64,000 nucleotides of DNA from Megaustenia siamemsis (taxonomy: Eukaryota; Mollusca; Gastropoda; Stylommatophora; Ariophantidae). Positions 24,816 through 56,618 of the stretch are shown here, piece by piece. The DNA is taken from NCBI GenBank assembly GCA_032433765.1, contig JAVIAB010000124.1:76936119-77000118 (forward strand). Direction: 5' to 3'. Both the position numbers and the translations under genes were made by a program. Under the pieces are notes generated by a model. That model worked only from the letters and a program-made list of their open reading frames with translations. It did not search any database and was not told the origin of the DNA. Position 1 is the stretch's first letter, and every line of letters begins with the position of its first letter.

Positions 24816-24819
24816 TGAT

Positions 24820-25302: not shown

Positions 25303-25352
25303 CAACTTCTGCCCTATGTGCCACCGTCCGCTGGAACAAACAATAGATAGAA

Positions 25353-26860: not shown

Positions 26861-26863
26861 CTA

Positions 26864-28571: not shown

Positions 28572-28585
28572 TATAATGTGATTAT

Positions 28586-29340: not shown

Positions 29341-29659
29341 TTAGGCTGTTAACATAAGATGCATCAAGTAGGTGCAACCGCTCCCTGTCCCTGCAGAGAG
29401 TGTTCTTATCAATCTAGCAAAGCTATAGCCGTGTTCTTATTATGTCTTCGTACATGACACCACACATTCAAGAATGAACAACTTTTGTGTGTTATAAATA
29501 AGTCATCATTTATTATGCATATAGATGTATAGATACTATCAGGCTATCCTTCCTAGCATCTCTGTAGATACTGGTTCGATCTAATAACAGTCTTGGCCTC
29601 TGAAGCACTTCGACTACCGTCGGTGTTGTACCTCAGCTATTCGTATCGTGGATATTCTA
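29341..29659. other. Unique region, no gene seen
   Basis: No exon or transposon motif identified. Sequence becomes pyrimidine-rich toward its right end. Confidence 0.4.
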
Positions 29660-30165: not shown

Positions 30166-30913
30166 TGAAGTTCTTCTGTGACCATTCTCAGTGCCCATCG
30201 GTCCCTAGTGCGTGGCTATCTCTGTGTGATTCCTAAGTCAACGTCTAAGTGTAGAAGTAAAAAGTAAAAAAATTGTCCTCTCAAGTCTGCCCTCTAACTT
30301 TATACTCCTGTCTTTTGACAGACAATTAACCTCACTTCCTGCTTCTCTTTGCCCACTCATTGTGACAGATTGGAGCCAAGCCCTGGAATTTCACAGAGCT
30401 GGGTCATTTGGTCAGGCTCACATCATTACTAGTAACTCGATCTTTATGTCTTTCTCTTTTCCTAAACTTCCACCTCCCTGCTAACTATTCTTTCTCCAGA
30501 TAAAATGACATCTAATACTGCTCTATTCTTCTCTGAACTCCAAGGTGACCATCCCTGACCATCTGCCACTGTGTGACTAGCCATCAGTTTGTGAGTTCTA
30601 CATTCCTTACTGACAGCCAAGGTCATTCTGGTTTACAAGCTTTTGGTCAATCACAGCGGTTTAACATGGTCTTTTAGTCCTCGCTAAATTATGATCTAAA
30701 TATGTATGTGTCATCATTCACGGTTACATAGCATGTTTTAGAACCCATGTTTGTTGTCCATCAATAATAAAGCTAGATGCCCATTCTTATTTTTCCTAAG
30801 ATCAATGGTTACTGAAGGGAAAAAAAAATACCCGCACACTTGACAAAAGGTTCCACCTTGGAATGTGAGTCTTGACCTTGGAATCAACTCCACAAGGAAC
30901 TACTCTGCCCAAC
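30166..30913. other. Presumed intron sequence, no further element recognised
   Basis: Non-tandem sequence lying 3' of the FHA exon on the minus strand. No second exon, RNA gene or transposon motif is clear. Confidence 0.4.
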
Positions 30914-31036
30914 CCTCTGTGGTATGCACATGAACTTAAAGAATTCAAAAAGGATATCATGTCCAAGTCGTATAGAATCCATATGATTGAGTGTAACATA
31001 TTCTTCCTCCGGGATACGGGAATTGTTCACATAAGT
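30914..31036 (-). CDS. CEP170-like: CEP170-like FHA domain, C-terminal half exon
   Basis: The exon begins after a strong acceptor (a CCTCTTTG tract and TATATTTCAG|ACT) at 31036 and reads TYVNNSRIPEEEYVTLNHMD, then SIRLGHDILFEFFKFMCIPQR. TYVN completes the FHA signature NGT(F/Y)VN with the exon at 56529-56618, and RIPE..Y.TL...D.(I/L)R.G.D is the CEP170-type second half of the fold. CEP170 proteins are centrosomal and microtubule-associated, and their N-terminal FHA domain binds phospho-threonine peptides. The 3' end is uncertain: AGG|GTTGGG at 30914 keeps phase 0 but is a weak donor, and the frame otherwise ends at a TGA at 30884-30886. The family call is from remembered consensus, not a search. 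Confidence 0.8.
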
Positions 31037-31292
31037 CTGAAATATATATGAACAAAGAGGATAACACAAATCAATATGAGAATGATAGATTTTGTGAAAA
31101 TGTACCTGCTGTGCACCTACAGTAATATTTAACAAAAAATGTGGCCTTCAAATGGTTTTAGTGTCCACATTCTTCAATGACCATCAGGGTCAAATGGATG
31201 ATGTATTCAGTATCAGACCAGGCCACAATACTTTCCCATCTCTGGCATACATTTTCTGCGGCAGTATAAACCCCACACCAGCATGGATCCAG

Positions 31293-34200
31293 AAAAGACC
31301 CTGAGAAATGAAACCAGACCAAGCTAGTCCAACCACTCTGTTACAGCAGCTGCTACAAATAATAAAAGACATGTCCCTGAGATATGAAACCAGACCCAGC
31401 TAGTCCAACCACTCTGTCACAGCAGCTGCTACAAGTAATAAAAGACATGTCCCTGATATATGAAACCAGACCCAGCTAGTCAGCAGATAAACATTCCAAC
31501 CACTCTGTCACAGCAGCTGCTACAAGTAATAAAAGACATGTACCTGATATATGAAACCAGACTCAGCTAGTCCAACCACTCTGTCACAGCAGCTGCTACA
31601 AGTAATAAAAGACATGTCCCTGATATATGAAACCAGACCCAGCTAGTCAGCAGATAAACATTCCAACCACTCTGTCACAGCAGCTGCTACAAGTAATAAA
31701 AGACATGTCCCTGATATATGAAACCAGACTCAGCTAGTCAGCAGATGAACAGTCCAACCACTCTGTCAGAGCAGCTGCTACAAGTAATAAAAGACATGTC
31801 CTGAGATATGAAACCAGACCCAGCTAGTCAGCAGATGAACATTCCAACCACTCTGTCACAGCAGCTGCTACAAGTAATAAAAGACAAATTCATGAGATAT
31901 GAAACCAGACCCAGCTAGTCCAACCACTCTGTCACAGCAGCTGCTACAAATAATAAAAGACATGTCCCTGAGATATGAAACCAGACCAAGCTAGTCAGCA
32001 GATGAACATTCCAACCACTCTGTCACAGTAGCTGCTACAAATAATATAAGACATGTCCCTGAGATATGAAACCAGATCCAGCTAGTCCAACCACTCTGTC
32101 ACAGCAGCTGCTACAAATAATAAAAGACATGTCCCTGAGATATGAAACCAGACCCAGCTAGTCAGCAGATGAACATTCCAACCACTCTGTCACAGAAGCT
32201 GCTACAAATAATAAAAGACATGTCCCTGAGATATGAAACCAGACCCAGCTAGTCAGCAGATGAACATTCCAACCACTCTGTCACAGCAGCTGCTACAAAT
32301 AATAAAAGACATGTCCCTGAGATATGAAACCAGACCCAGCTAGTCAGCAGATGAACATTCCAACCACTCTGTCACAGCAGCTGCTACAAATAATAAAAGA
32401 CATGCCACTGAGATATGAAACCAGGCCCAGCTAGTCCAACCACTCTGTCACAGCAGCTGCTACAAATAATAAAAGACATGTCCCTGAGATATGAAACCAG
32501 ACACAGCTAGTCCAACTGTAACAGCAGCTGCTACAAATAATAAAAGACATGTCCCTGAGATATGAAACCAGACCCAGCTAGTCCAACTGTCACAGCAGCT
32601 GCTACAAATAATAAAAGACATGTCCCTGAGATATGAAACCAGACCCAGCTAGTCCAACCACTCTGTCACAGAAGCTGCTACAAATAATAAAAGACATGTC
32701 CCTGAGATATGTAACCAGGCCCAGCTAGTCAGCAGATGAACATTCCAACCACTCTGTCACAGCAGCTGCTACAAATAATAAAAGACATGTCCCTGATATA
32801 TGAAACCAGACCCAGCTAGTCCAACCACTCTGTCACAGCAGCTGCTACAAATAATAAAAGACATGTCCCTGAGATATGAAACCAGACCCAGCTAGTCAAA
32901 CCACTCTGTCACAGCAGCTGCTACAAATAATAAAAGACATGTCCCTGAGATATGAAACCAGACCCAGCTAGTCAGCAGATGAATATTCCAACCACTCTGT
33001 CACAGCAGCTGCTACAAATAATAAAAGACATGTCCCTGATATATGAAACCAGACCCAGCTAGTCCAACCACTCTGTCACAGCAGCTGCTACAAATAATAA
33101 AAGACATGTCCCTGAGATATAAAAACCAGACCCAGCTAGTCCAACTGTCACAGCAGCTGCTACAAATAATAAAAGACATGTCCCTGAGATATGAAACCAG
33201 ACCCAGCTAGTCCAACCACTCTGTCACAGCAGCTGCTACAAATAATAAAAGACATGTCCCTGAGATATGAAACCAGACACAGCTAGTCCAACCACTCTGT
33301 CACAGCAGCTGCTACAAATAATAAACGACATGTCCCTGAGATATGAAACCAGACCCAGCTAGTCCAACTTTCACAGCAGCTGCTACAAATAATAAAAGAC
33401 ATGTCCCTGATATATGAAACCAGACCCAGCTAGTCAGCAGATGAACATTCCAACCACTCTGTCACAGCAGCTGCTACAAATAATAAAAGACATGTCCCTG
33501 ATATATGAAACCAGACTCAGCTAGTCAGCAGATAAATATTCCAACCACTCTGTCACAGCAGCTGCTACAAATAATAAAAGACATGCACCTGACATAAGAA
33601 ACCAGACCCAGCTAGTCCAACCACTCTGTCACAGCAGCTGCTACAAGTAATAAAAGACATGTCCCTGATATATGAAACCAGACTCAGCTAGTCAGCAGAT
33701 AAACATTCCAACCACTCTGTCACAGCAGCTGCTACAAGTAAGAAAAGACATGTCCCTGATATATGAAACCAGACTCAGCTAGTCCAACCACTCTGTCACA
33801 GCAGCTGCTACAAGTAATAAAAGACATGTCCCTGAGATATGAAACCAGACCCAGCTGGTCCAACCACTCTGTCACAGCAACTGCTACAAATAATAAAAGA
33901 CATGTCCCTGAGATATGAAACCAGACCCAGCTAGTCAGCAGATGAACATTCCAACCACTCTGTCACAGCAGCTGCTACAAATAATAAAAGACATGTCCCT
34001 GAGATATGAAACCAGACCCAGCTAGTCCAACCACTCTGTCACAGCAGCTGCTACAAGTAATAAAAGACATGTCCCTGAGATATGAAACCAGACCCAGCTA
34101 GTCCAACCACTCTGTCACAGCAGCTGCTACAAATAATAAAAGACATGTCCCTGAGATATGAAACCAGACCAAGCTAGTCAGCAGATGAACATTCCAACCA

Positions 34201-37200
34201 CTCTGTCACAGTAGCTGCTACAAATAATAAAAGACATGTCCCTGAGATATGAAACCAGACCCAGCTAGTCCAACCACTCTGTCACAGCAGCTGCTACAAA
34301 TAATAAAAGACATGTCCCTGAGATATGAAACCAGACCCAGCTAGTCAGCAGATGAACATTCCAACCACTCTGTCACAGAAGCTGCTACAAATAATAAAAG
34401 ACATGTCCCTGAGATATGAAACCAGACCCAGCTAGTCAGCAGATGAACATTCCAACCACTCTGTCACAGCAGCTGCTACAAATAATAAAAGACATGTCCC
34501 TAAGATATGAAACCAGACCCAGCTAGTCAGCAGATGAACATTCCAACCACTCTGTCACAGCAGCTGCTACAAATAATAAAAGACATGCCACTGAGATATG
34601 AAACCAGACCCAGCTAGTCCAACCACTCTGTCACAGCAGCTGCTACAAATAATAAACGACATGTCCCTGAGATATGAAACCAGACCCAGCTAGTCCAACT
34701 GTCACAGCAGCTGCTACAAATAATAAAAGACATGTCCCTGAGATATGAAACCAGACCCAGCTAGTCCAACTGTCACAGCAGCTGCTACAAATAATAAAAG
34801 ACATGTCCCTGAGATATGAAACCAGACCCAGCTAGTCCAACCACTCTGTCACAGAAGCTGCTACAAATAATAAAAGACATGTCCCTGAGATATGTAACCA
34901 GGCCCAGCTAGTCAGCAGATGAACATTCCAACCACTCTGTCACAGCAGCTGCTACAAATAATAAAAGACATGTCCCTGAGATATGAAACCAGACCCAGCT
35001 AGTCCAACCACTCTGTCACAGCAGCTGCTACAAATAATAAAAGACATGTCCCTGAGATATGAAACCAGACCCAGCTAGTCAAACCACTCTGTCACAGCAG
35101 CTGCTACAAATAATAAAAGACATGTCCCTGAGATATGAAACCAGACCCAGCTAGTCAGCAGATGAATATTCCAACCACTCTGTCACAGCAGCTGCTACAA
35201 ATAATAAAAGACATGTCCCTGATATATGAAACCAGACCCAGCTAGTCCAACCACTCTGTCACAGCAGCTGCTACAAATAATAAAAGACATGTCCCTGATA
35301 TATGAAACCAGACCCAGCTAGTCCAACCACTCTGTCACAGCAGCTGCTACAAATAATAAAAGACATGTCCCTGAGATATGAAACCAGACCCAGCTAGTCC
35401 AACTGTCACAGCAGCTGCTACAAATAATAAAAGACATGTCCCTGAGATATGAAACCAGACCCAGCTAGTCCAACCACTCTGTCACAGCAGCTGCTACAAA
35501 TAATAAAAGACATGTCCCTGAGATATGAAACCAGACCCAGCTAGTCCAACCACTCTGTCACAGCAGCTGCTACAAATAATAAACGACATGTCCCTGAGAT
35601 ATGAAACCAGACCCAGCTAGTCCAACTTTCACAGCAGCTGCTACAAATAATAAAAGACATGTCCCTGAGATATGAAACCAGACCCAGCTAGTCAGCAGAT
35701 GAACATTCCAACCACTCTGTCACAGCAGCTGCTACAAATAATAAAAGACATGTCCCTGATATATGAAACCAGACTCAGCTAGTCAGCAGATAAATATTCC
35801 AACCACTCTGTCACAGCAGCTGCTACAAATAATAAAAGATATGCACCTGACATATGAAACCAGACCCAGCTAGTCCAACCACTCTGTCACAGCAGCTGCT
35901 ACAAGTAATAAAAGACATGTCCCTGATATATGAAACCAGACTCAGCTAGTCAGCAGATAAACATTCCAACCACTCTGTCACAGCAGCTGCTACAAGTAAG
36001 AAAAGACATGTCCCTGATATATGAAACCAGACTCAGCTAGTCCAACCACTCTGTCACAGCAGCTGCTACAAGTAATAAAAGACATGTCCCTGAGATATGA
36101 AACCAGACCCAGCTAGTCCAACCACTCTGTCACAGCAGCTGCTACAAATAATAAAAGACATGTCCCTGAGATATGAAACCAGACCCAGCTAGTCAGCAGA
36201 TGAACATTCCAACCACTCTGTCACAGCAGCTGCTACAAGTAATAAAAGACATGTCCCTGAGATATGAAACCAGACCCAGCTAGTCCAACCACTCTGTCAC
36301 AGCAGCTGCTACAAGTAATAAAAGACATGTCCCTGAGATATGAAACCAGACCCAGCTAGTCCAACCACTCTGTCACAGCAGCTGCTACAAATAATAAAAG
36401 ACATGTCCCTGAGATATGAAACCAGAACAAGCTAGTCAGTAGATGAACATTCCAACCACTCTGTCACAGTAGCTGCTACAAATAATAAAAGACATGTCCC
36501 TGAGATATGAAACCAGACCCAGCTAGTCCAACCACTCTGTCACAGCAGCTGCTACAAATAATAAAAGACATGTCCCTGAGATATGAAACCAGACCCAGCT
36601 AGTCAGCAGATGAACATTCCAACCACTCTGTCACAGAAGCTGCTACAAATAATAAAAGACATGTCCCTGAGATATGAAACCAGACCCAGCTAGTCAGCAG
36701 ATGAACATTCCAACCACTCTGTCACAGCAGCTGCTACAAATAATAAAAGACATGTCCCTGAGATATGAAACCAGACCCAGCTAGTCAGCAGATGAACATT
36801 CCAACCACTCTGTCACAGCAGCTGCTACAAATAATAAAAGACATGCCCTGAGATATGAAACCAGACCCAGCTAGTCCAACCACTCTGTCACAGCAGCTGC
36901 TACAAATAATAAACGACATGTCCCTGAGATATGAAACCAGACCCAGCTAGTCCAACTGTCACAGCAGCTGCTACAAATAATAAAAGACATGTCCCTGAGA
37001 TATGAAACCAGACCCAGCTAGTCCAACTGTCACAGCAGCTGCTACAAATAATAAAAGACATGTCCCTGAGATATGAAACCAGACCCAGCTAGTCAGCAGA
37101 TGAACATTCCAAACACTCTGTCACAGAAGCTGCTACAAATAATAAAAGACATGTCCCTGAGATATGTAACCAGGCCCAGCTAGTCAGCAGATGAACATTC

Positions 37201-40200
37201 CAACCACTCTGTCACAGCAGCTGCTACAAATAATAAAAGACATGTCCCTGAGATATGAAACCAGACCCAGCTAGTCCAACCACTCTATCACAGCAGCTGC
37301 TACAAATAATAAAAGACATGTCCCTGAGATATGAAACCAGACCCAGCTAGTCCAACCACTCTGTCACAGCAGCTGCTACAAGTAATAAAAGACATGTCCC
37401 TGATATATGAAACCAGACTCAGCTAGTCAGCAGATAAACATTCCAACCACTCTGTCACAGCAGCTGCTACAAGTAAGAAAAGACATGTCCCTGATATATG
37501 AAACCAGACTCAGCTAGTCCAACCACTCTGTCACAGCAGCTGCTACAAGTAATAAAAGACATGTCCCTGAGATATGAAACCAGACCCAGCTGGTCCAACC
37601 ACTCTGTCACAGCAACTGCTACAAATAATAAAAGACATGTCCCTGAGATATGAAACCAGACCCAGCTAGTCAGCAGATGAACATTCCAACCACTCTGTCA
37701 CAGCAGCTGCTACAAATAATAAAAGACATGTCCCTGAGATATGAAACCAGACCCAGCTAGTCCAACCACTCTGTCACAGCAGCTGCTACAAGTAATATAA
37801 GACATGTCCCTGAGATATGAAACCAGACCCAGCTAGTCCAACCACTCTGTCACAGCAGCTGCTACAAATAATAAAAGACATGTCCCTGAGATATGAAACC
37901 AGACCAAGCTAGTCAGCAGATGAACATTCCAACCACTCTGTCACAGTAGCTGCTACAAATAATAAAAGACATGTCCCTGAGATATGAAACCAGACCCAGC
38001 TAGTCCAACCACTCTGTCACAGCAGCTGCTACAAATAATAAAAGACATGTCCCTGAGATATGAAACCAGACCAGCTAGTCAGCAGATGAACATTCCAACC
38101 ACTCTGTCACAGAAGCTGCTACAAATAATAAAAGACATGTCCCTGAGATATGAAACCAGACCCAGCTAGTCAGCAGATGAACATTCCAACCACTCTGTCA
38201 CAGCAGCTGCTACAAGTAATAAAAGACATGTCCCTGAGATATGAAAACCAGACCCAGCTAGTCAGCAGATGAACATTCCAACCACTCTGTCACAGCAGCT
38301 GCTACAAATAATAAAAGACATGCCACTGAGATATGAAACCAGACCCAGCTAGTCCAACCACTCTGTCACAGCAGCTGCTACAAATAATAAACGACATGTC
38401 CCTGAGATATGAAACCAGACCCAGCTAGTCCAACTGTCACAGCAGCTGCTACAAATAATAAAAGACATGTCCCTGAGATATGAAACCAGACCAAGCTAGT
38501 CAGCAGATGAACATTCCAACCACTCTGTCACAGTAGCTGCTACAAATAATAAAAGACATGTCCCTGAGATATGAAACCAGACCCAGCTAGTCAGCAGATG
38601 AACATTCCAACCACTCTGTCACAGCAGCTGCTACAAGTAATAAAAGACATGTCCCTGAGATATGAAACCAGACCCAGCTAGTCCAACCACTCTGTCACAG
38701 CAGCTGCTACAAATAATAAAAGACATGTCCCTGAGATATGAAACCAGAACAAGCTAGTCAGTAGATGAACATTCCAACCACTCTGTCACAGCAGCTGCTA
38801 CAAGTAATAAAAGACATGTCCCTGAGATATGAAACCAGACCCAGCTAGTCCAACCACTCTGTCACAGCAGCTGCTACAAATAATAAAAGACATGTCCCTG
38901 AGATATGAAACCAGACCCAGCTAGTCAGCAGATGAACATTCCAACCACTCTGTCACAGAAGCTGCTACAAATAATAAAAGACATGTCCCTGAGATATGAA
39001 ACCAGACCCAGCTAGTCAGCAGATGAACATTCCAACCACTCTGTCACAGCAGCTGCTACAAATAATAAAAGACATGTCCCTGAGATATGAAACCAGACCC
39101 AGCTAGTCAGCAGATGAACATTCCAACCACTCTGTCACAGCAGCTGCTACAAATAATAAAAGACATGCCCCTGAGATATGAAACCAGACCCAGCTAGTCC
39201 AACCACTCTGTCACAGCAGCTGCTACAAATAATAAACGACATGTCCCTGAGATATGAAACCAGACCCAGCTAGTCCAACTGTCACAGCAGCTGCTACAAA
39301 TAATAAAAGACATGTCCCTGAGATATGAAACCAGACCCAGCTAGTCCAACTGTCACAGCAGCTGCTACAAATAATAAAAGACATGTCCCTGAGATATGAA
39401 ACCAGACCCAGCTAGTCAGCAGATGAACATTCCAACCACTCTGTCACAGAAGCTGCTACAAGTAATAAAAGACATGTCCCTGAGATATGAAACCAGACCC
39501 AGCTAGTCCAACCACTCTGTCACAGCAGCTGCTACAAATAATAAAAGACATGTCCCTGAGATATGAAACCAGAACAAGCTAGTCAGTAGATGAACATTCC
39601 AACCACTCTGTCACAGTAGCTGCTACAAATAATAAAAGACATGTCCCTGAGATATGAAACCAGACCCAGCTAGTCCAACCACTCTGTCACAGCAGCTGCT
39701 ACAAATAATAAAAGACATGTCCCTGAGATATGAAACCAGACCCAGCTAGTCAGCAGATGAACATTCCAACCACTCTGTCACAGAAGCTGCTACAAATAAT
39801 AAAAGACATGTCCCTGAGATATGAAACCAGACCCAGCTAGTCAGCAGATGAACATTCCAACCACTCTGTCACAGCAGCTGCTACAAATAATAAAAGACAT
39901 GCCCCTGAGATATGAAACCAGACCCAGCTAGTCCAACCACTCTGTCACAGCAGCTGCTACAAATAATAAACGACATGTCCCTGAGATATGAAACCAGACC
40001 CAGCTAGTCCAACTGTCACAGCAGCTGCTACAAATAATAAAAGACATGTCCCTGAGATATGAAACCAGACCAGCTAGTCCAACTGTCACAGCAGCTGCTA
40101 CAAATAATAAAAGACATGTCCCTGAGATATGAAACCAGACCCAGCTAGTCAGCAGATGAACATTCCAACCACTCTGTCACAGAAGCTGCTACAAATAATA

Positions 40201-43200
40201 AAAGACATGTCCCTGAGATATGTAACCAGGCCCAGCTAGTCAGCAGATGAACATTCCAACCACTCTGTCACAGCAGCTGCTACAAATAATAAAAGACATG
40301 TCCCTGAGATATGAAACCAGACCCAGCTAGTCCAACCACTCTATCACAGCAGCTGCTACAAATAATAAAAGACATGTCCCTGAGATATGAAACCAGACCC
40401 AGCTAGTCCAACCACTCTGTCACAGCAGCTGCTACAAGTAATAAAAGACATGTCCCTGATATATGAAACCAGACTCAGCTAGTCAGCAGATAAACATTCC
40501 AACCACTCTGTCACAGCAGCTGCTACAAGTAAGAAAAGACATGTCCCTGATATATGAAACCAGACTCAGCTAGTCCAACCACTCTGTCACAGCAGCTGCT
40601 ACAAGTAATAAAAGACATGTCCCTGAGATATGAAACCAGACCCAGCTGGTCCAACCACTCTGTCACAGCAACTGCTACAAATAATAAAAGACATGTCCCT
40701 GAGATATGAAACCAGACCAGCTAGTCAGCAGATGAACATTCCAACCACTCTGTCACAGCAGCTGCTACAAATAATAAAAGACATGTCCCTGAGATATGAA
40801 ACCAGACCCAGCTAGTCCAACCACTCTGTCACAGCAGCTGCTACAAGTAATAAAAGACATGTCCCTGAGATATGAAACCAGACCCAGCTAGTCCAACCAC
40901 TCTGTCACAGCAGCTGCTACAAATAATAAAAGACATGTCCCTGAGATATGAAACCAGACCAAGCTAGTCAGCAGATGAACATTCCAACCACTCTGTCACA
41001 GTAGCTGCTACAAATAATAAAAGACATGTCCCTGAGATATGAAACCAGACCCAGCTAGTCCAACCACTCTGTCACAGCAGCTGCTACAAATAATAAAAGA
41101 CATGTCCCTGAGATATGAAACCAGACCCAGCTAGTCAGCAGATGAACATTCCAACCACTCTGTCACAGAAGCTGCTACAAATAATAAAAGACATGTCCCT
41201 GAGATATGAAACCAGACCCAGCTAGTCAGCAGATGAACATTCCAACCACTCTGTCACAGCAGCTGCTACAAATAATAAAAGACATGTCCCTGAGATATGA
41301 AACCAGACCCAGCTAGTCAGCAGATGAACATTCCAACCACTCTGTCACAGCAGCTGCTACAAATAATAAAAGACATGCCACTGAGATATGAAACCAGACC
41401 CAGCTAGTCCAACCACTCTGTCACAGCAGCTGCTACAAATAATAAACGACATGTCCCTGAGATATGAAACCAGACCCAGCTAGTCCAACTGTCACAGCAG
41501 CTGCTACAAATAATAAAAGACATGTCCCTGAGATATGAAACCAGACCCAGCTAGTCCAACTGTCACAGCAGCTGCTACAAATAATAAAAGACATGTCCCT
41601 GAGATATGAAACCAGACCCAGCTAGTCCAACCACTCTGTCACAGAAGCTGCTACAAATAATAAAAGACATGTCCCTGAGATATGTAACCAGGCCCAGCTA
41701 GTCAGCAGATGAACATTCCAACCACTCTGTCACAGCAGCTGCTACAAATAATAAAAGACATGTCCCTGAGATATGAAACCAGACCCAGCTAGTCCAACCA
41801 CTCTGTCACAGCAGCTGCTACAAATAATAAAAGACATGTCCCTGAGATATGAAACCAGACCCAGCTAGTCAAACCACTCTGTCACAGCAGCTGCTACAAA
41901 TAATAAAAGACATGTCCCTGAGATATGAAACCAGACCCAGCTAGTCAGCAGATGAATATTCCAACCACTCTGTCACAGCAGCTGCTACAAATAATAAAAG
42001 ACATGTCCCTGATATATGAAACCAGACCCAGCTAGTCCAACCACTCTGTCACAGCAGCTGCTACAAATAATAAAAGACATGTCCCTGATATATGAAACCA
42101 GACCCAGCTAGTCCAACCACTCTGTCACAGCAGCTGCTACAAATAATAAAAGACATGTCCCTGAGATATGAAACCAGACCCAGCTAGTCCAACTGTCACA
42201 GCAGCTGCTACAAATAATAAAAGACATGTCCCTGAGATATGAAACCAGACCCAGCTAGTCAGCAGATGAACATTCCAACCACTCTGTCACAGCAGCTGCT
42301 ACAAATAATAAAAGACATGTCCCTGATATATGAAACCAGACTCAGCTAGTCAGCAGATAAATATTCCAACCACTCTGTCACAGCAGCTGCTACAAATAAT
42401 AAAAGATATGCACCTGACATATGAAACCAGACCCAGCTAGTCCAACCACTCTGTCACAGCAGCTGCTACAAGTAATAAAAGACATGTCCCTGATATATGA
42501 AACCAGACTCAGCTAGTCAGCAGATAAACATTCCAACCACTCTGTCACAGCAGCTGCTACAAGTAAGAAAAGACATGTCCCTGATATATGAAACCAGACT
42601 CAGCTAGTCCAACCACTCTGTCACAGCAGCTGCTACAAGTAATAAAAGACATGTCCCTGAGATATGAAACCAGACCCAGCTAGTCCAACCACTCTGTCAC
42701 AGCAGCTGCTACAAATAATAAAAGACATGTCCCTGAGATATGAAACCAGACCCAGCTAGTCAGCAGATGAACATTCCAACCACTCTGTCACAGCAGCTGC
42801 TACAAGTAATAAAAGACATGTCCCTGAGATATGAAACCAGACCCAGCTAGTCCAACCACTCTGTCACAGCAGCTGCTACAAGTAATAAAAGACATGTCCC
42901 TGAGATATGAAACCAGACCCAGCTAGTCCAACCACTCTGTCACAGCAGCTGCTACAAATAATAAAAGACATGTCCCTGAGATATGAAACCAGAACAAGCT
43001 AGTCAGTAGATGAACATTCCAACCACTCTGTCACAGTAGCTGCTACAAATAATAAAAGACATGTCCCTGAGATATGAAACCAGACCCAGCTAGTCCAACC
43101 ACTCTGTCACAGCAGCTGCTACAAATAATAAAAGACATGTCCCTGAGATATGAAACCAGACCCAGCTAGTCAGCAGATGAACATTCCAACCACTCTGTCA

Positions 43201-46200: not shown

Positions 46201-49200
46201 AGAAAAGACATGTCCCTGATATATGAAACCAGACTCAGCTAGTCCAACCACTCTGTCACAGCAGCTGCTACAAGTAATAAAAGACATGTCCCTGAGATAT
46301 GAAACCAGACCCAGCTAGTCCAACCACTCTGTCACAGCAGCTGCTACAAATAATAAAAGACATGTCCCTGAGATATGAAACCAGACCCAGCTAGTCAGCA
46401 GATGAACATTCCAACCACTCTGTCACAGCAGCTGCTACAAGTAATAAAAGACATGTCCCTGAGATATGAAACCAGACCCAGCTAGTCCAACCACTCTGTC
46501 ACAGCAGCTGCTACAAGTAATAAAAGACATGTCCCTGAGATATGAAACCAGACCCAGCTAGTCCAACCACTCTGTCACAGCAGCTGCTACAAATAATAAA
46601 AGACATGTCCCTGAGATATGAAACCAGAACAAGCTAGTCAGTAGATGAACATTCCAACCACTCTGTCACAGTAGCTGCTACAAATAATAAAAGACATGTC
46701 CCTGAGATATGAAACCAGACCCAGCTAGTCCAACCACTCTGTCACAGCAGCTGCTACAAATAATAAAAGACATGTCCCTGAGATATGAAACCAGACCCAG
46801 CTAGTCAGCAGATGAACATTCCAACCACTCTGTCACAGAAGCTGCTACAAATAATAAAAGACATGTCCCTGAGATATGAAACCAGACCCAGCTAGTCAGC
46901 AGATGAACATTCCAACCACTCTGTCACAGTAGCTGCTACAAATAATAAAAGACATGTCCCTGAGATATGAAACCAGACCCAGCTAGTCAGCAGATGAACA
47001 TTCCAACCACTCTGTCACAGCAGCTGCTACAAATAATAAAAGACATGCCCCTGAGATATGAAACCAGACCCAGCTAGTCCAACCACTCTGTCACAGCAGC
47101 TGCTACAAATAATAAACGACATGTCCCTGAGATATGAAACCAGACCCAGCTAGTCCAACTGTCACAGCAGCTGCTACAAATAATAAAAGACATGTCACTG
47201 ACATATGAAACCAGACCCAGCTAGTCCAACTGTCACAGCAGCTGCTACAAATAATAAAAGACATGTCCCTGAGATATGAAACCAGACCCAGCTAGTCAGC
47301 AGATGAACATTCCAACCACTCTGTCACAGAAGCTGCTACAAATAATAAAAGACATGTCCCTGAGATATATAACCAGGCCCAGCTAGTCAGCAGATGAACA
47401 TTCCAACCACTCTGTCACAGCAGCTGCTACAAATAATAAAAGACATGTCCCTGAGATATGAAACCAGACCCAGCTAGTCCAACCACTCTGTCACAGCAGC
47501 TGTTACAAGTAATAAAAGACATGTCCCTGAGATATGAAACCAGACCCAGCTAGTCCAACCACTCTGTCACAGCAGCTGCTACAAATAATAAAAGACATGT
47601 CCCTGAGATATGAAACCAGAACAAGCTAGTCAGTAGATGAACATTCCAACCACTCTGTCACAGTAGCTGCTACAAATAATAAAAGACATGTTCCTGAGAT
47701 ATGAAACCAGACCCAGCTAGTCCAACCACTCTGTCACAGCAGCTGCTACAAATAATAAAAGACATGTCCCTGAGATATGAAACCAGACCCAGCTAGTCAG
47801 CAGATGAACATTCCAACCACTCTGTCACAGAAGCTGCTACAAATAATAAAAGACATGTCCCTGAGATATGAAACCAGACCCAGCTAGTCAGCAGATGAAC
47901 ATTCCAACCACTCTGTCACAGCAGCTGCTACAAATAATAAAAGACATGTCCCTGAGATATGAAACCAGACCCAGCTAGTCAGCAGATGAACATTCCAACC
48001 ACTCTGTCACAGCAGCTGCTACAAATAATAAAAGACATGCCCCTGAGATATGAAACCAGACCCAGCTAGTCCAACCACTCTGTCACAGCAGCTGCTACAA
48101 ATAATAAACGACATGTCCCTGAGATATGAAACCAGACCCAGCTAGTCCAACTGTCACAGCAGCTGCTACAAATAATAAAAGACATGTCCCTGAGATATGA
48201 AACCAGACCCAGCTAGTCCAACTGTCACAGCAGCTGCTACAAATAATAAAAGACATGTCCCTGAGATATGAAACCAGACCCAGCTAGTCCAACCACTCTA
48301 TCACAGCAGCTGCTACAAATAATAAAAGACATGTCCCTGAGATATGAAACCAGACCCAGCTAGTCAAACCACTCTGTCACAGCAGCTGCTACAAATAATA
48401 AAAGACATGTCCCTGAGATATGAAACCAGACCCAGCTAGTCAGCAGATGAATATTCCAACCACTCTGTCACAGCAGCTGCTACAAATAATAAAAGACATG
48501 TCCCTGAGATATGAAACCAGACCCAGCTAGTCCAACCACTCTGTCACAGCAGCTGCTACAAATAATAAAAGACATGTCCCTGAGATATGAAACCAGACAC
48601 AGCTAGTCAGCAGATGAATATTCCAACCACTCTGTCACAGCAGCTGCTACAAATAATAAATGACATGTCCCTGAGATATGAAACCAGATCCAGCACAGCA
48701 GCTGCTACAAATAATAAAAGACATGTCCCTGAGATATGAAACCAGACCAGCTAGTCCAACCACTCTGTCACAGCAGCTGCTACAAATAATAAACGACATG
48801 TCCCTGAGATATGAAACCAGACCCAGCTAGTCCAACTTTCACAGCAGCTGCTACAAATAATAAAAGACATGTCCCTGAGATATGAAACCAGACCCAGCTA
48901 GTCAGCAGATGAACATTCCAACCACTCTGTCACAGAAGCTGCTACAAATAATAAAAGACATGTCCCTGATATATGAAACCAGACTCAGCTAGTCAGCAGA
49001 TAAACATTCCAACCACTCTGTCACAGCAGCTGCTACAAATAATAAAAGACATGCACCTGACATATGAAACCAGACCCAGCTAGTCCAACCACTCTGTCAC
49101 AGCAGCTGCTACAAGTAATAAAAGACATGTCCCTGATATATGAAACCAGACTCAGCTAGTCAGCAGATAAACATTCCAACCACTCTGTCACAGCAGCTGC

Positions 49201-51610
49201 TACAAGTAAGAAAAGACATGTCCCTGATATATGAAACCAGACTCAGCTAGTCCAACCACTCTGTCACAGCAGCTGCTACAAGTAATAAAAGACATGTCCC
49301 TGAGATATGAAACCAGACCCAGCTAGTCCAACCACTCTGTCACAGCAGCTGCTACAAATAATAAAAGACATGTCCCTGAGATATGAAACCAGACCCAGCT
49401 AGTCAGCAGATGAACATTCCAACCACTCTGTCACAGCAGCTGCTACAAGTAATAAAAGACATGTCCCTGAGATATGAAACCAGACCCAGCTAGTCCAACC
49501 ACTCTGTCACAGCAGCTGCTACAAGTAATAAAAGACATGTCCCTGAGATATGAAACCAGACCCAGCTAGTCCAACCACTCTGTCACAGCAGCTGCTACAA
49601 ATAATAAAAGACATGTCCCTGAGATATGAAACCAGACCCAGCTAGTGCAACTGTCACAGCAGCTGCTACAAATAATAAAAGACATGTCCCTGAGATATGA
49701 AACCAGACCCAGCTAGTCCAACCACTCTATCACAGCAGCTGCTACAAATAATAAAAGACATGTCCCTGAGATATGAAACCAGACCCAGCTAGTCAAACCA
49801 CTCTGTCACAGCAGCTGCTACAAATAATAAAAGACATGTCCCTGAGATATGAAACCAGACCCAGCTAGTCAGCAGATGAATATTCCAACCACTCTGTCAC
49901 AGCAGCTGCTACAAATAATAAAAGACATGTCCCTGAGATATGAAACCAGACCCAGCTAGTCCAACCACTCTGTCACAGCAGCTGCTACAAATAATAAAAG
50001 ACATGTCCCTGAGATATGAAACCAGACCCAGCTAGTCAGCAGATGAATATTCCAACCACTCTGTCACAGCAGCTGCTACAAATAATAAATGACATGTCCC
50101 TGAGATATGAAACCAGATCCAGCACAGCAGCTGCTACAAATAATAAAAGACATGTCCCTGAGATATGAAACCAGACCCAGCTAGTCCAACCACTCTGTCA
50201 CAGCAGCTGCTACAAATAATAAACGACATGTCCCTGAGATATGAAACCAGACCCAGCTAGTCCAACTTTCACAGCAGCTGCTACAAATAATAAAAGACAT
50301 GTCCCTGAGATATGAAACCAGACCCAGCTAGTCAGCAGATGAACATTCCAACCACTCTGTCACAGAAGCTGCTACAAATAATAAAAGACATGTCCCTGAT
50401 ATATGAAACCAGACTCAGCTAGTCAGCAGATAAACATTCCAACCACTCTGTCACAGCAGCTGCTACAAATAATAAAAGACATGCACCTGACATATGAAAC
50501 CAGACCCAGCTAGTCCAACCACTCTGTCACAGCAGCTGCTACAAGTAATAAAAGACATGTCCCTGATATATGAAACCAGACTCAGCTAGTCAGCAGATAA
50601 ACATTCCAACCACTCTGTCACAGCAGCTGCTACAAGTAAGAAAAGACATGTCCCTGATATATGAAACCAGACTCAGCTAGTCCAACCACTCTGTCACAGC
50701 TGCTGCTACAAGTAATAAAAGACATGTCCCTGAGATATGAAACCAGACCCAGCTAGTCCAACCACTCTGTCACAGCAGCTGCTACAAATAATAAAAGACA
50801 TGTCCCTGAGATATGAAACCAGACCCAGCTAGTCAGCAGATGAACATTCCAACCACTCTGTCACAGCAGCTGCTACAAGTAATAAAAGACATGTCCCTGA
50901 GATATGAAACCAGACCCAGCTAGTCCAACCACTCTGTCACAGCAGCTGCTACAAGTAATAAAAGACATGTCCCTGAGATATGAAACCAGACCCAGCTAGT
51001 CCAACCACTCTGTCACAGCAGCTGCTACAAATAATAAAAGACATGTCCCTGAGATATGAAACCAGACCCAGCTAGTCCAACCACTCTGTCACAGCAGCTG
51101 CTACAAATAATAAAAGACATGTCCCTGAGATATGAAAGCAGACCAAGCTAGTCCAACTGTCACAGCAGCTGCTACAAGTAATAAAAGACATTTCCCTGAG
51201 ATATGAAACCAGACCCAGCTAGTCAGCAGATAAACATTCCAACCACTCTGTCACAGCAGCTGCTACAAATAATAAAAGACATGTCCCTGAGATATGAAAC
51301 CAGACTCAGCTAGTCAGCAGATGAACATTCCAACCACTCTGTCAGAGCAGCTGCTACAAGTAATAAAAGACATGTCCCTGAGATATGAAACCAGACCAAG
51401 CTAGTCAGCAGATGAACATTCCAACCACTCTGTCACAGCAGCTGCTACAAATAATAAAAGACATGTCCCTGAGATATGAAACCAGACCCAGCTAGTCCAA
51501 CCACTCTGTCACAGCAGCTGCTACAAAAAATAAAAGACATGTCCCTGAGATATGAAACCAGACCCAGCTAGTCAAACCACTCTGTCACAGCAGCTGCTAC
51601 AAATAATAAA
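31293..51610. repeat. 20.3-kb satellite, 71/76/91-bp units, roughly 250 copies
   Basis: The basic 76-bp unit runs CCAACCACTCTGTCACAGCA, GCTGCTACAAATAATAAAAG, ACATGTCCCTGAGATATGAA, ACCAGACCCAGCTAGT. A 91-bp form inserts CAGCAGATGAACATT after CTAGT, and a 71-bp form shortens CCAACCACTCTGTC to CCAACTGTC. The three forms are mixed in recurring orders, so higher-order units of about 1.4-3.6 kb exist. The left edge (31293-31330) carries variant text such as GAGAAATG and CTGTTACAG. The right edge stops cleanly at AATAATAAATGCC. Each unit holds the palindrome AGCAGCTGCT. No long ORF crosses it; the two 61-codon frames at 37984 and 40630 are by-products. Confidence 0.98.
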
Positions 51611-52077
51611 TGCCAAAACAAATAAAAATCCTTGTTGATGTCATTAGCCCCCCACCCCCCAAAAGTAATTCTAATTCCTTCCCTTTCTGTACTTCAAATT
51701 AAATAATGATTGACCTACCCAGACATGATGTATTCTGCAACTCTGAATTACTGGATAAAAGATGCATTTAAATGTAGGTCTGCCATCCCCTAAACATATG
51801 TCATTAACTGAGTTTACTGAATCTAATTAGTTTAGTAGACCAGATATGCGATAGTGTATGAATTTTATTATATACCCCAACTCTGAGTATAACATAATAC
51901 TGCCTGGGTCTAACCTGTGTAAAAAGTATCTTTCAATAATGTCCACTTTCTGGTAAAATAAAAATAATGTTCAACATAATTTATTTGAAATTGCAAGCCA
52001 TACGGCCTGTTAATTCACACAGGTTGTATCATAAACACCAGCATGAGACAACTCACATATAGACACTGTGACGCTCT
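51611..52077. other. Unique flank of the satellite, no gene seen
   Basis: AT-rich non-repetitive sequence with a short C-rich CCCCCCACCCCCC at about 51649. No coding or RNA feature. Confidence 0.45.
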
Positions 52078-52311
52078 CCTCTCATCATCAAGTACCATGC
52101 CTGCTGGCATAGGTGATCATGTATCTCCACAACATAGTTCATAACACAGTTATTTATCATTTCTGTTGTTGACCTTCTGCCAAGCCATTCTCTTTAAGCT
52201 GTCTGGTATCTTTTCTCTTTGTTTTCCTCTATCTCTTTGTCCCTCAATTTTTCCAGTTATTACAGTATATTTCAGCTGTTCCCTTCTCATTACATGGCTA
52301 AAAAATGATGA
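52078..52311 (-). mobile_element. RTE-like LINE C-terminal fragment, minus strand
   Basis: The minus strand reads HVMRREQLKYTVITGKIEGQ, RDRGKQRKKIPDSL and onward, ending with ATGATGAG at 52078. It is the same family as 52634-52872 and lies inverted to it, with the unknown element in between. It starts at the LINE position CAATCATCATTTTTT, exactly where the copy at 56215 stops. Confidence 0.8.
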
Positions 52312-52315
52312 TTGC

Positions 52316-52906
52316 TAGTAGTATAGCAGGAAGGATTTGAGTCACATTTGGCCCATAAATTAACAAAGATATATAGTGCAGTGCACGGCGCAGGGGGAGT
52401 TAACCATGACCTCTCGTGTCGGGTTGTTGACTCTCTTGTCGGGTTGTTGACTCTCGTGTCGGTGACCCCGGAAGAGACCTGTTTATGTCTGATGTGTGCT
52501 GACTTTGGAGTTCTTGATGTACTGGGTCGATAGCGATAGGTTAGTAGATTGTACTAACAATGAAAAACAATAGCATTAAAACAGAAATCAAAAGATATAT
52601 TTTATTCTTTTATTATCTCAGTAGATATATAACCCATAAATATCATCATTTTTTGGCCATGTAATGAGAAGAGAACAACTTGAATATATTGTAACAACTG
52701 GAAAAATTGAGGGACAAAGAGATAGAGGGAAGCAAAGAGAAAAAATAACAGACAGCTTAAGAGAATGGCTTGGCAGAAGGTCAACAACAGAAATGATAAA
52801 TAGCTGCCGAGATCAAAAGTTGTGGAGAGACATGATCACCTATGTCACTAGGCCCGGTACTTGATGATGATGAGATATATAACATACAGTGGATATTATA
52901 TAAGAT
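52316..52906 (+). mobile_element. Unknown ~340-bp element, copy 1, split by a LINE insertion
   Basis: Begins TAGTAGTATAGCAGGAAGGA and includes GTCGGTGACCCCGGAAG, TGTGTGCTGACTTTGGAGTT, CGATAGCGATAGGTTAGTAG and TATCTCAGTAGATATATAAC. It continues after the LINE (52634-52872) with ATACAGTGGATATTATATA. The same sequence, inverted, forms 55883-56214. This copy has an extra tandem of TTGTCGGGTTGTTGACTCTC. It has no terminal repeats or protein I recognise. Confidence 0.75.
52634..52872 (+). mobile_element. 5'-truncated RTE-like LINE with 11-bp target-site duplication
   Basis: Encodes GHVMRREQLEYIVTTGKIEG, QRDRGKQREKITDSLREWLG, RRSTTEMINSCRDQKLWRDM and ITYVTRPGT, then a stop and the tail TGATGATG. 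It is flanked by perfect direct repeats AGATATATAAC at 52623-52633 and 52873-52883. The uninterrupted copy of the host element at 55883-56214 has this 11-mer once, which proves the insertion. The frame of 66 codons is intact to the stop. Confidence 0.92.
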
Positions 52907-52978
52907 TACAAAAATATTTAGCACACTGAGTAAATATATAGTACAAGGATAACATTTATTTATAGCTATGTAGTTGGG

Positions 52979-53218
52979 AGAGGTGCGCGTGGCCGTGCGG
53001 CTAAAATCACTGTTCCTAATGGGTGAAAAGCTAACGTACGGTGTTCAAAGCACGCGGTAGACAGAAAGGATTTTTTCTATCGGGGGTGAAATAAAATCCT
53101 GAGTCGTACACATCGTGCCGACTGCTGGACCAAGCGGCCTTTATCCCTCTGGTTCTATTGTTGCCCCCCCGACATATACCAGCAATGGTACTATGTGTCG
53201 TAAAGATAGTTTTTTTTA
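52979..53218 (+). mobile_element. tRNA-derived SINE, family C, with 11-bp target-site duplication
   Basis: Head GTGCGCGTGGCCGTGCGGCT resembles a Pol III A box (TGGCCGTGCGG), and GGTGTTCAAAGC about 60 bp on resembles a decayed B box. It ends GTCGTAAAGATAGTTTTTTT. Flanking repeats are ATGTAGTTGGG (52968-52978) and ATGCAGTTGGG (53219-53229), one mismatch apart. It is unlike families A and B in its body. Confidence 0.8.
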
Positions 53219-53334
53219 ATGCAGTTGGGTGTCTGCTGACGTTGTGTATTATTTAATTGTTTTTAAATGGAGGCAAGCATAACCCGGTGCGCCTTCCCTC
53301 GGTATTATCTCTCAACATTAGGACTAGACCTTTC

Positions 53335-54041
53335 TTCTTCCTTGGTATTATTAGTACTCTCTCTCTCTCTCTCCTATTTAGTATCGTTGTTTAACTTTTC
53401 ATAACTATATTTCTTCTGTATTAGCAGTGCTAATCATCTATCTCTCTCTCTCCTATATCCTCATAGACTACTCTCCTTCCATGCCCCCTCCCTGCCTCCT
53501 CTCTCTCTTTCCACCTTAACTCTTCTAACATTCCACCCTCTCTCGTATTTTTAGCTTCTCTAATAGAATTCCCTCCATTGTAACACTTACTCATTCTCTC
53601 CATTTACGCCTATCATTTCTCTTTCCCTCTCCTAGACTTCTCTCTCTCTCTCTCTCCTCTCCTCTCTCCTATTCCTGCCTAGACTTCCCTCCATACTCAT
53701 TCTCACCTTTTAAGCCTATCACTTCCCTTCCTTCTCCTATACTTCTCTCTCACTCTCTCTCTCTGTCTCCTAGACTTCTCTCCTACCATTCCATCCTTCT
53801 GCCTCTCTCTCTCCTTACCATTTCGCCCTCCATCGTATCTTTAGCTTCCCTCCTAGACTTTCCTCCAATGTAACACTTACTCATTCTCTCCCTTTATACC
53901 TATCATCTATCTTTCACTCTCCTAGACTTCTTTCTCTCTCTCTTTCTCTCTCCTATTCCCTCCTAGACTTTCCTCCAATGTAACACTTACTCATTCTCTC
54001 CCTTTATGCCTATCATCTATCTTTCACTCTCCTAGACTTCT

Positions 54042-54080
<39 letters not shown>

Positions 54081-54169
54081 CTCCTATTCCCTCCTAGACT
54101 TTTCTCCATTGTAACACTTACTCATTCTCTCCCTTTATGCCAATCATCTATCTTTCACTCTCCTAGACT

Positions 54170-54208
<39 letters not shown>

Positions 54209-55355
54209 CTCCTATTCCCTCCTAGACTTTCCTCCATTGTAACACTTACTCATTCTCTCCCTTTATGCCTATCATCTATCTTTCACTCTCCTAGACTTCT
54301 TTCTCTCTCTCTTTCTCTCTCCTATTCCCTCCTAGACTTTCCTCCAATGTAACACTTACTCATTCTCTCCCTTTATGCCTATCATCTATCTTTCGCTCTC
54401 CTAGACTTCTTTCTCTCTCTCTCTCTCTCTCTCCTCTCTCCTATTCCCTCCTAGACTTTCCTCCATTGTAACACTTACTCATTCTCTCCCTTTATGCCTA
54501 TCATCTATCTTTCACTCTCCTAGACTTCTTTCTCTCTCTCTCTCTCTCCTCTCTCCTATTCCCTCCTAGACTTTCCTCCATTGTAACACTTACTCATTCT
54601 CTCCTTTATGCCTATCATCTATCTTTCACTCTCCTATACTTCTTTCTCTCTCTCTCTCTCTCTCCTCTCTCCTATTCCCTCCTAGACTTTCGTCCATTGT
54701 AACACTTACTCATTCTCTCCCTTTATGCCTATCATCTATCTTTCACTCTCCTAGACTTCTCTCTCTCTCTCTCTCCTCTCTCCTATTCCCTCCTAGACTT
54801 TCCTCCATTGTAACACTTACTCATTCTCTCCCTTTATGCCTATCATCTATCGTTCACTCTCCTAGACTTCTTTCTCTCTCTCTCCTATTCCCTCCTAGAC
54901 TTTCCTCCATTGTAACACTTACTCATTCTCTCCCTTTATGCCTATCATCTATCTTTCACTCTCCTAGACTTCTTTCTCTCTCTCTCTCCTCTCTCCTATT
55001 CCCTCCTAGACTTTCCTCCATGGCAACAATTACTCATTCTCGCCTTTTAACCCTATCATCTCCCCTTCCTTCTCTTAGACATCTTCTATCTCTCTCTCTC
55101 TCCTAGACTTCTCTCCTACCATTCCATCCTCCTCCTCCTCTCTCTCCCTCTCTCTCTTATAACATTCCGCCCTCCATCGTATTTTAGCTTCCCCCATAGA
55201 CTTCCCTCCATTGTAATACTTACTCATTCTCTCCATTTAATCCTATTATCTCGCTTTCCCTCCCCTAGGCTTCTCTCTCTCTCATTCTTCTCTCTATCTC
55301 TCTCTCTCCTATACCCTCCTAGACTTCCCTCCATTGTAACACTTAACTCATTCTC
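53335..55355. repeat. CT-rich array, about 115-bp units with (CT)n blocks
   Basis: About 2 kb of pyrimidine-rich sequence. The central part (53950-55020) has about ten copies of a unit holding CTATTCCCTCCTAGACTTTC, CATTGTAACACTTACTCATT and CTATCATCTATCTTTCACTC, each followed by a (CT)n block of 5-15 repeats. Unit spacing varies from 100 to 133 bp because the (CT)n blocks vary. Edge units are more diverged. Mirror-symmetric pyrimidine tracts of this kind can form triplex (H) DNA. Confidence 0.95.
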
Positions 55356-55369
55356 TCCATTTATGCCTA

Positions 55370-55878
55370 TCCAAAAGCTTTCCAAAAAATGAGGAAGATA
55401 CTATGCAATCCATTTTTGACAATAGAAACAAGAAAAAAAGTTCTTAAATGTTATGTAGAGCCAGTCTTAACATATGGATGTGAGTCATGGACAATAGGAC
55501 AAAAGACAAGAAAATCACTGCAGTCTGTAGAAATGTGGTTTTACAGAAGAATGTTGAGAGTACCATGGACAGCTAAGAAGAGTAATGAAGATGTTCTGAG
55601 AGAGGTCAAAGCAAAATGAGAGCTAATTTCCAATATTAGGAAGAGACAATCATCATTTTTTGGCCATGTAATGAGAAGAGAACAACTGGAATATATTGTA
55701 ACAACTGGAAAAATTGAGGGACGAAGAGACAGAGGGAAGCAAAGAGAACAAATAACAGACAGCTTAAGAGAATGACTTGGCAGAAGGTCAACAACAGAAA
55801 TGATAAATAGCTGCTGAGATCGAAAATTGTGAATAGACATGATCACCTACGTCAGTAGGCACGGTACTTGATGATGTT
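55370..55878 (+). mobile_element. RTE-like LINE C-terminus, plus strand
   Basis: Reads MRKILCNPFLTIETRKKVLK, VEPVLTYGCESWTIGQKTRK, SVEMWFYRRMLRVPWTAKKS, NEDVLREVKAK and, after an in-frame TGA, RELISNIRKRQSSFFGHVMR, EQLEYIVTTGKIEGRRDRGK, MINSC, a stop and MITYVSRHGT, then TGATGATG. It is the longest copy of the family found at 24820, 52078, 52634 and 56215. Three stops mark it as dead. It abuts the CT-rich array on its left. Confidence 0.9.
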
Positions 55879-55882
55879 GAAT

Positions 55883-56214
55883 GTTATATAATATCCACTG
55901 TATGTTATATATCTACTGAGATAATAAAAGAATAAAATATATCTTTTTATTTCTGTTTTAATGCTATTGTTTTTCATTGATGTAGTACAATCTACTAACC
56001 TATCGCTATCGATCCAGTACATCAAGAACTCCAAAGTCAGCACACATCAGACATAAACAGGTCACTTCCGGGGTCACCGACACGAGAGTCAACACCCCGA
56101 CATGATAGATCATGGTTACCTCCCCCTGAGCCACGCGCGTTAGGCGCGCCGCGCTATATATCTTTGTTAATTTATGGGCCAAATGCGACCCAAATCCTTC
56201 CTGCTATACTACTA
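55883..56214 (-). mobile_element. Unknown ~330-bp element, copy 2, inverted and uninterrupted
   Basis: The minus strand reads TAGTAGTATAGCAGGAAGGA to ATACAGTGGATATTATATAAC, matching copy 1 with few differences. It carries a CG-rich GCGCGGCGCGCCTAACGCGC stretch where copy 1 has TGCAGTGCACGGCGC. Because it is not interrupted, it shows the state of copy 1 before the LINE insertion. Confidence 0.75.
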
Positions 56215-56355
56215 TTGTTTCTTCCTAATATTGGAAATTAGCTCTTTTAGCTTGTCCTCTGTCGGAGCGTTCTCATTACTCTTCTTAGATGTCAATGGCA
56301 TTCTCAACATTCTTCTGTAAAACCCAATTTCTAAAGCCTCCATTAATTTTCATGT
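56215..56355 (-). mobile_element. RTE-like LINE fragment, minus strand
   Basis: The minus strand contains LQKNVENAIDIKKSNEN-type text and ELISNIRKKQ, ending at AGGAAGAAACAAT directly against the unknown element. It corresponds to the part of the LINE just upstream of the piece at 52078-52311. Confidence 0.7.
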
Positions 56356-56528
56356 CTGTTGTGTTATTGCTCTCCTCTACATTTAGCTTATTCTATGATG
56401 TCATTGCGTAGCTGGCCACCGCAGGGCATGGCGGTACACATTTTGGGAAATACAACTTTACAAAACTGTTCTCAACGAATCACTTCGAGAAAGAAGAGCA
56501 AAAGTGTCATACGACACCTGAAACTTAC

Positions 56529-56618
56529 GCCATTTGTGGTACTCAGGTCTTTCACCTTGAACCTGTTCAGGTAAAGGTCAAAAGTCAATACAGCATGTCG
56601 CTTGTCTACTGACTGTGA
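56529..56618 (-). CDS. CEP170-like: CEP170-like FHA domain, N-terminal core exon (90 bp)
   Basis: Minus-strand exon of exactly 30 codons in phase 0. It is preceded by a textbook acceptor (TTTCTTTCTCATTATTTGCAG, exon from 56618) and followed by C|GTAAGTTT (last exon base 56529). It encodes SQSVDKRHAVLTFDLYLNRF and KVKDLSTTNG. SVDK.HAV, the following (Y/F)D, VKDL and terminal NG match the FHA core of CEP170 proteins; the next exon supplies TYVN. The invariant FHA His (of S..H) is present. The exon with the start codon and the 'GR' motif was not found in the window. The retained consensus residues and sites argue that this is functional rather than a pseudogene. Confidence 0.82.

Follow-up and report, generated by a model that had tools for sequence, protein, structure and literature searches.

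Predicted AT-AC intron after the FHA core of a gastropod CEP170 gene

We analyzed a 64,000-nucleotide (nt) stretch of contig C123, here called the window, and found on its minus strand a locus that we assign with high confidence, on sequence evidence, to the gene for CEP170 (centrosomal protein of 170 kDa), with a phase-1 AT-AC intron of the U12 type after the core of its FHA domain. The gene is apparently intact and ordinary, a standard centrosome gene; the intron and the annotation trap that it sets are the interesting part. A first-pass annotation of the window had described a CEP170-like FHA domain on two minus-strand exons and had carried the second of these to position 30914, which is 44 nt too far. 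We found that coding ends at 30958 and that the protein resumes at 26667, and 30957-30914 is most likely intronic. The wrong end arose because an AT-AC U12-type intron was left out of consideration.

Exon structure and the AT-AC intron

Exon 1 lies at 56618-56529 (minus strand, 90 nt), where the first-pass annotation had placed it, between a ..ttgcag acceptor and a gtaagt donor. It encodes SQSVDKRHAVLTFDLYLNRFKVKDLSTTNG, is in phase 0 at both ends, and has a counterpart in a paralogue on contig C50. Intron 1 (31037-56528, 25,492 nt, minus strand) is a GT-AG intron of the U2 type. Exon 2 (30958-31036, 79 nt, minus strand) starts at 31036 after a ..tttcag acceptor, encodes TYVNNSRIPEEEYVTLNHMDSIRLGH plus the first base of an Asp codon, and ends in phase 1. 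As had been proposed, exons 1 and 2 join in phase 0, so that SQSVDKRHAVLTFDLYLNRFKVKDLSTTNG is followed by TYVNNSRIPEEEYVTLNHMDSIRLGHD and ..STTNG runs into TYVN.., with SVDKRHAV and RIPEEEYVTL at their reported places.

Spliced in silico, the 71 residues of the joined exons matched the Pfam FHA family at an E value of 6.3e-13, while the halves alone reached 0.0022 and 0.0047, both under the family cut-off. We also confirmed the reported affinity to CEP170. Searching PDB with these residues, we found human CEP170 (4jon) as the best match at 3.6e-14, the runner-up being at 2.1e-4. The protein search returned eight candidates, all at E ≤ 1e-3, with Mytilus and Nymphon records (CEP170 or centrosomal protein) on top; a Mytilus CEP170 record was 82% identical across 85% of the query. 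A Biomphalaria record, P0003, covers 42% of the query with 97% identity and stops exactly at ..STTNG, the end of exon 1. Conversely, when 2,870 six-frame stretches of the window were compared with records P0001 and P0002, each record matched only the exon 1 and exon 2 pieces below E = 1. A 183-residue splice of five exons aligned to 4jon without gaps over 98 residues (47-144) at 5.9e-27. No other PDB entry matched this splice at E ≤ 1e-5. In the protein searches, CEP170-named records came first.

U12-type introns have the 5' splice site RTATCCTT and a branch site, TTCCTTRAY, 10 to 20 nt before their 3' end. At the end of exon 2, the initial G of the Asp codon is followed by ATATCCTTTTTG, a U12-type 5' splice site. 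It begins with an exact ATATCCTT at 30957-30950 (minus strand), which reads D-I-L when left unspliced, and the same exact site ends exon 2 of the paralogue. At the far end of intron 2 (26668-30957, 4,290 nt, minus strand), we found AAACCTTAACACACTCTCAC directly followed by AT GCA ATG ATG TAC. This sequence supplies the branch motif, the AC end, and the two missing bases of the Asp codon. The branch site AACCTTAAC lies at 26678-26686 (minus strand), with its branch A 11 nt from the intron end. Joining 30958 to 26667 gives LGHD-AMMYHIEQ, which is in frame and gapless against 4jon.

We then compared this junction with full-length relatives, a set of 15 drawn from Mytilus and Haliotis only. All 15 read RLG-x-D and then SMVYYMEQ or TMVYHVEK, with nothing between. 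The unspliced window reads D-ILFEFFKFMCIPQR, and none of the 15 has similar residues there. To locate the resuming exon by tblastn, we used the N-terminal part of CEP170 as the query, as the whole-length query was swamped by Ser-rich arrays; the search returned AMMYHIEQGSQITT..LAECQ at 26665-26516 (minus strand). Ordinary splices do not give the same product. We enumerated GT/GC-AG pairs that leave no stop codon, taking donors between 60 nt upstream and 89 nt downstream of the boundary and acceptors over a comparable range. None of the 23 pairs joins D straight to AMMYH; 8 keep both sides and insert at least 16 residues.

Within the window, the minus strand has two copies of ATATCCTT (60714 and 30957; 0.89 expected) and a single CCTTAAC-N6-16-AC, at 26684, just before exon 3. 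We considered and rejected coincidence: only the 30957 copy of ATATCCTT sits at a codon fixed by homology, and the strand's only CCTTAAC-N6-16-AC sits at the other end. The splice motifs are thus informative through their position, not through their rarity. The same genome contains a U12 small nuclear RNA (snRNA) gene (132.9 bits versus a cut-off of 53). AT-AC introns are the less common subtype of minor intron, and a mollusc with a minor intron of phase 1 is in line with expectation.

The second CEP170 locus, at C50:7629079-7698152, has the same exon structure, including a stretch, GCIAEQNLEHTC, that resembles exon 4. Over exons 1 to 3, the two loci agree at 85 of 106 residues and 74% of coding bases, so the paralogue is neither an allele nor a recent copy; the two copies of exon 3 match at 9e-21 with 71% identity. 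We found that exon 2 of the paralogue ends in ..GGACAAG before ATATCCTTGACA and that its exon 3 is preceded by CTTCCTTAGCGACCATCAC, again AT-AC. Its branch site, TTCCTTAGC, agrees with the consensus at eight of nine positions, its seventh base presumably being the branch A. The two loci would fit as candidate duplicates from the genome duplication in land snails and slugs that is described in PMC12328838.

The intron is probably spliced as drawn here. In the arrangement that we propose, the FHA exons are small and separated by ordinary phase-0 GT-AG introns, save for the phase-1 AT-AC intron after the domain core, which the minor (U12) spliceosome would remove. Recognition of ATATCCTT (30957-30950) would fall to U11 and U6atac, CCTTAAC would base-pair with U12, and the intron would end in the AC at 26669-26668. 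Correct splicing would give LGHD-AMMYHIEQ and so would likely supply the last strand of the FHA fold. Were the intron retained, translation would continue for 23 residues beyond the Asp and then stop; the retained frame meets a stop codon at 30886-30884.

The FHA domain and the extent of the gene

The 183-residue splice matched PF00498 at 1e-16 (61.5 bits against a gathering score of 20.7) over profile positions 3-67 of 67. The first-pass annotation was right that the domain is split by 25.5 kb, but its two exons cover only the central part of the domain. The Pfam core (residues 67-132 of 183) lies on three exons, and the 4jon alignment (47-144) extends into a fourth. The FHA-coding exons are at about C123:77003168-77003296, just outside the window, at 56618-56529, at 31036-30958, and at the start of 26667-26519. 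FHA domains contact phospho-peptides through Gly-Arg, Ser-x-x-His, and Asn-Gly, and the canonical residue three before the His is Ser. We found LGRE, the His, and NG in the window. Three positions ahead of the conserved His, both the window and 4jon have Asp. Because Asp replaces Ser, phospho-threonine binding, the usual expectation for FHA domains, cannot be taken for granted.

Exons 3 and 4 were absent from the first-pass annotation. Exon 3 (26519-26667, 149 nt, minus strand) encodes (D)AMMYHIEQGSQITT...LAECQ and ends at a gtaagt donor. Intron 3 (19044-26518, 7,475 nt, minus strand) is GT-AG. Exon 4 (18372-19043, 672 nt, minus strand) encodes GCIAEQKIDHACG...NTWPKKRPVRKTTHVGSVF...ETLPRL and also ends at a gtaagt donor. 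Its GCIAEQKIDHACG and NTWPKKRPVRKTTHVGSVF match Haliotis and Mytilus CEP170, with best E values of 1.9e-4 and 2.1e-5. The last third of exon 4 has no visible similarity to relatives, so its 3' end is placed by the gtaagt donor alone. The gene had been said to be invisible to a filter on the length of open reading frames (ORFs). This holds for exons 1 to 3 but not for exon 4, which lies inside a 256-residue stop-to-stop ORF (18342-19112, Pfam negative).

Upstream of the window, the exon at C123:77003168-77003296 encodes DHWYLVDTHGQKFRLPKTMLFLGREECDVVVA, and the first exon of the gene, MDRIREK..VGKQ, lies at C123:77012349-77012474. Similar starts occur in records of Biomphalaria, Plakobranchus, Haliotis, and Mytilus. 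In the 200-kb downstream flank, we found collinear CEP170 stretches, here numbered in window coordinates: LVPELATVKKGTPLYGQPSWWG at -68383 (E 4.5e-7), SMSFTIDLDD.. at -76683 (E 1.3e-4), YLIDKMFEGG.. at -96095 (E 2.1e-8), and RKRPGTGRKLPSIPSDKSP at -199822 (E 3.2e-7), with a weak fifth stretch at -199444 (E 3.1). The family blocks after the FHA domain therefore stand in order, exons 3 and 4 (E 0.015 and 1.9e-4 against Haliotis) being followed by the downstream stretches. With the two upstream exons and the downstream stretches included, the locus extends over at least 276 kb.

Protein records, competing explanations, and the age of the intron

To see how protein records treat this junction, we ran a profile search. 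Of its 520 candidates at E ≤ 0.01, 60 were short relatives, and those from the earlier protein search bring the total to 62. The size filter of this survey favors truncated records and the query alignment included D-I-L sequences, so these counts describe the short relatives and are no estimate of a share among all CEP170 records. The junction is reached by 55 of the 62 short relatives and not by the other 7, and the 55 contain 45 distinct junctions. D-I-L stands in 43 of the 45, and the other two (Mya P0044 and P0066) carry a single additional residue ahead of I-L. Position +3 already varies (S in 13, L in 11, F in 7, and others), and likeness beyond it is found within groups of close relatives, for example fishes or birds. 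D-I-L is the translation of GAT ATC CTT, in which the U12 site is read as codons; conservation that ends there therefore marks a splice signal, not a protein.

Among these are 23 named CEP170-like records that run into the intron, 22 of them with D-I-L, the exception being from Mya. Going by their names, we take them to come from bivalves, gastropods, a sea spider, a millipede, ticks, mayflies, a frog, birds, gadid fish, a snake, and mammals. Because D-I-L occurs at one codon in mollusc, arthropod, and vertebrate records, the AT-AC intron is probably ancient. The records that end 0 to 46 residues after D-I-L, some of them marked partial, are most simply gene models built without AT-AC introns; some could be real retained-intron messages.

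Several observations weigh against our reading of the locus. Searched alone, exon 3 is weak (E 0.015 for Haliotis; 0.075 and 0.078 for two Mytilus forms). Neither splice motif is rare by itself: one ATATCCTT and three CCTTAAC-N6-16-AC occur on the window's plus strand. The branch 9-mer AACCTTAAC agrees with TTCCTTRAY at seven of nine positions, the first two bases being off. In the paralogue, the branch motif ends in AGC instead of AAC, and the splice gives Glu where the window has Asp. For other phyla, the intron is deduced from protein translations instead of DNA. Finally, a search of 264 kb on the gene's strand, a region that ends before the expected site, gave no match to Haliotis residues 895-1588, the C-terminal part.

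We weighed these points together with three other explanations. According to the first-pass annotation, exon 2 would run to 30914 and be spliced at GT 30913, making ILFEFFKFMCIPQR coding. The frame is open to 30887, GTTGGG is formally a possible donor, and a splice from 30913 to the acceptor at ..agagag retains AMMYHIEQ in frame with 22 residues inserted. However, the donor gttggg looks weak by eye, all 15 full-length relatives lack an insert at the end of exon 2, and the residues beyond D-I-L vary between lineages. The product would also insert residues right before a strand that aligns gaplessly to 4jon. We rejected 30914 as the exon end on the insert-free relatives and the lineage-variable residues after D-I-L, and we give this model hardly any credence. 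It is also very improbable that the locus is a decayed or transposed copy of CEP170, or that an assembly error in a repeat-rich region united its exons. Tandem repeats do make up 60.5% of the window, there is a second CEP170 locus on C50, and the 264 kb searched did not yield the C-terminal exons. Against this, the examined exons are open, ordered, and in phase, with recognizable signals, and the two loci share their structure but differ in bases and residues to the degree given above, as an allele or recent copy would not.

The remaining explanation accepts the AT-AC intron and holds that its retention forms a second, used message end: a short CEP170, consisting of the N terminus and an FHA domain without its last strand, would be made when minor splicing is slow. 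We consider this unlikely. The early-ending records, named from molluscs, arthropods, and vertebrates, count for it. Messages with so early a stop would often be degraded, which counts against it. So does the finding that the tails share little past the splice motif save among near relatives (fishes often ILSL, birds IL-x-IKM), as expected of automatic models that disallow AT-AC introns. In its favor, passages of PMC11684760 describe retention of minor introns under U4atac deficiency; that paper names CEP170 once, in its reference list.

A broader idea, which we put forward as speculative and unlikely, is that bilaterians inherited the AT-AC intron in the FHA domain of CEP170 from their common ancestor and have kept it because its slow removal regulates the protein. 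Under limiting minor splicing, cells would then make a short CEP170 without the final FHA strand and all that follows it. If so, CEP170, and perhaps its vertebrate sister CEP170B, would directly link minor-spliceosome activity to centriole appendages or cilia, and CEP170 would be a candidate mediator of the microcephaly and ciliary traits of minor-spliceosome disease. The AT-AC intron makes CEP170 a testable minor-spliceosome target. Correcting truncated models matters to users of FHA-only CEP170 records; the first-pass annotation fell into the same trap. Our literature search found no paper that names a minor intron in CEP170; genome-wide minor-intron tables and databases lay outside this search, and the human intron may well be catalogued.

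Repeats of the window and comparison with known systems

Much of intron 1 is repetitive. A satellite array at 31299-51610 (20,312 bp, about 250 units spaced mainly 76, 91, or 71 bp) fills 80% of its 25,492 nt; the unit spacings come in mixed order and, by eye, recur in longer blocks. Also in intron 1, at 52194-56369, six pairs of inverted-repeat arms (69-126 nt, 80-99% complementary) surround a minisatellite at 53846-55102, and this region could be a DNA transposon or foldback element carrying a tandem array.

Elsewhere, a 5.4-kb tandem array at 10863-16294, built mainly of a 45-bp unit (about 82 copies), has several frames open on both strands, which is why it contains long spurious ORFs of up to 534 residues. 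A 3.1-kb tandem array at 57475-60594 gives rise to a spurious 787-residue minus-strand ORF. We rejected the long ORFs of the window as genes, many of them sitting in tandem arrays by eye. Of 66 listed ORFs, 8 were searched against Pfam: one gave a reverse-transcriptase match just below the cut-off, one matched DUF4639 at E 0.054, which we took for noise, and six gave none. The plus-strand reverse-transcriptase fragment at 63543-64000 (PF00078, 28.4 bits against a cut-off of 29.6) is perhaps the remnant of a long interspersed nuclear element cut by the window end. At 28480-28590 (minus strand), the sequence has by eye the look of a short interspersed nuclear element derived from a transfer RNA (tRNA), with A-box- and B-box-like motifs. 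Scans of the window for tRNA genes (ARAGORN) and Rfam families gave no matches.

Among the 11 records compared, the closest to the window were those of Biomphalaria and Plakobranchus. Over exons 0 to 2, Biomphalaria glabrata P0003 is identical at 62 of 64 aligned residues, the record being incomplete and ending with exon 1. Plakobranchus ocellatus P0025 is identical at 88 of 97, again in an incomplete record, which runs into the AT-AC intron. Both genera are heterobranchs. The host would thus be a gastropod near heterobranch records, and it may belong to the land snail and slug group.

Within the CEP170/CEP170B family, the snail gene shares with human CEP170 (4jon) the N-terminal FHA domain, gapless over 98 residues, and downstream blocks such as GTPLYGQPSWWGD in the same order. 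It differs in having an extra N-terminal exon (MDRIREK...VGKQ) before the FHA domain; to our knowledge, human CEP170 has no such exon. A further difference is that the snail genome contains two CEP170 paralogues, the window gene and the C50 locus. The C-terminal region of CEP170 in vertebrates binds microtubules and the centrosome, and by analogy the snail protein may likewise be a centriole and microtubule scaffold. Published work, including PMC11112123, whose reference list has Guarguaglini 2005 on the FHA protein, ties vertebrate CEP170 to subdistal appendages and cilia.

Compared with U12-type AT-AC introns, the window intron has two mismatches to the branch consensus, and its splicing is predicted from DNA sequence. 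It shares with them the ATATCCTT 5' site, CCTTAAC 11 nt before the AC end, a non-zero phase, and a U12 snRNA gene in the genome.

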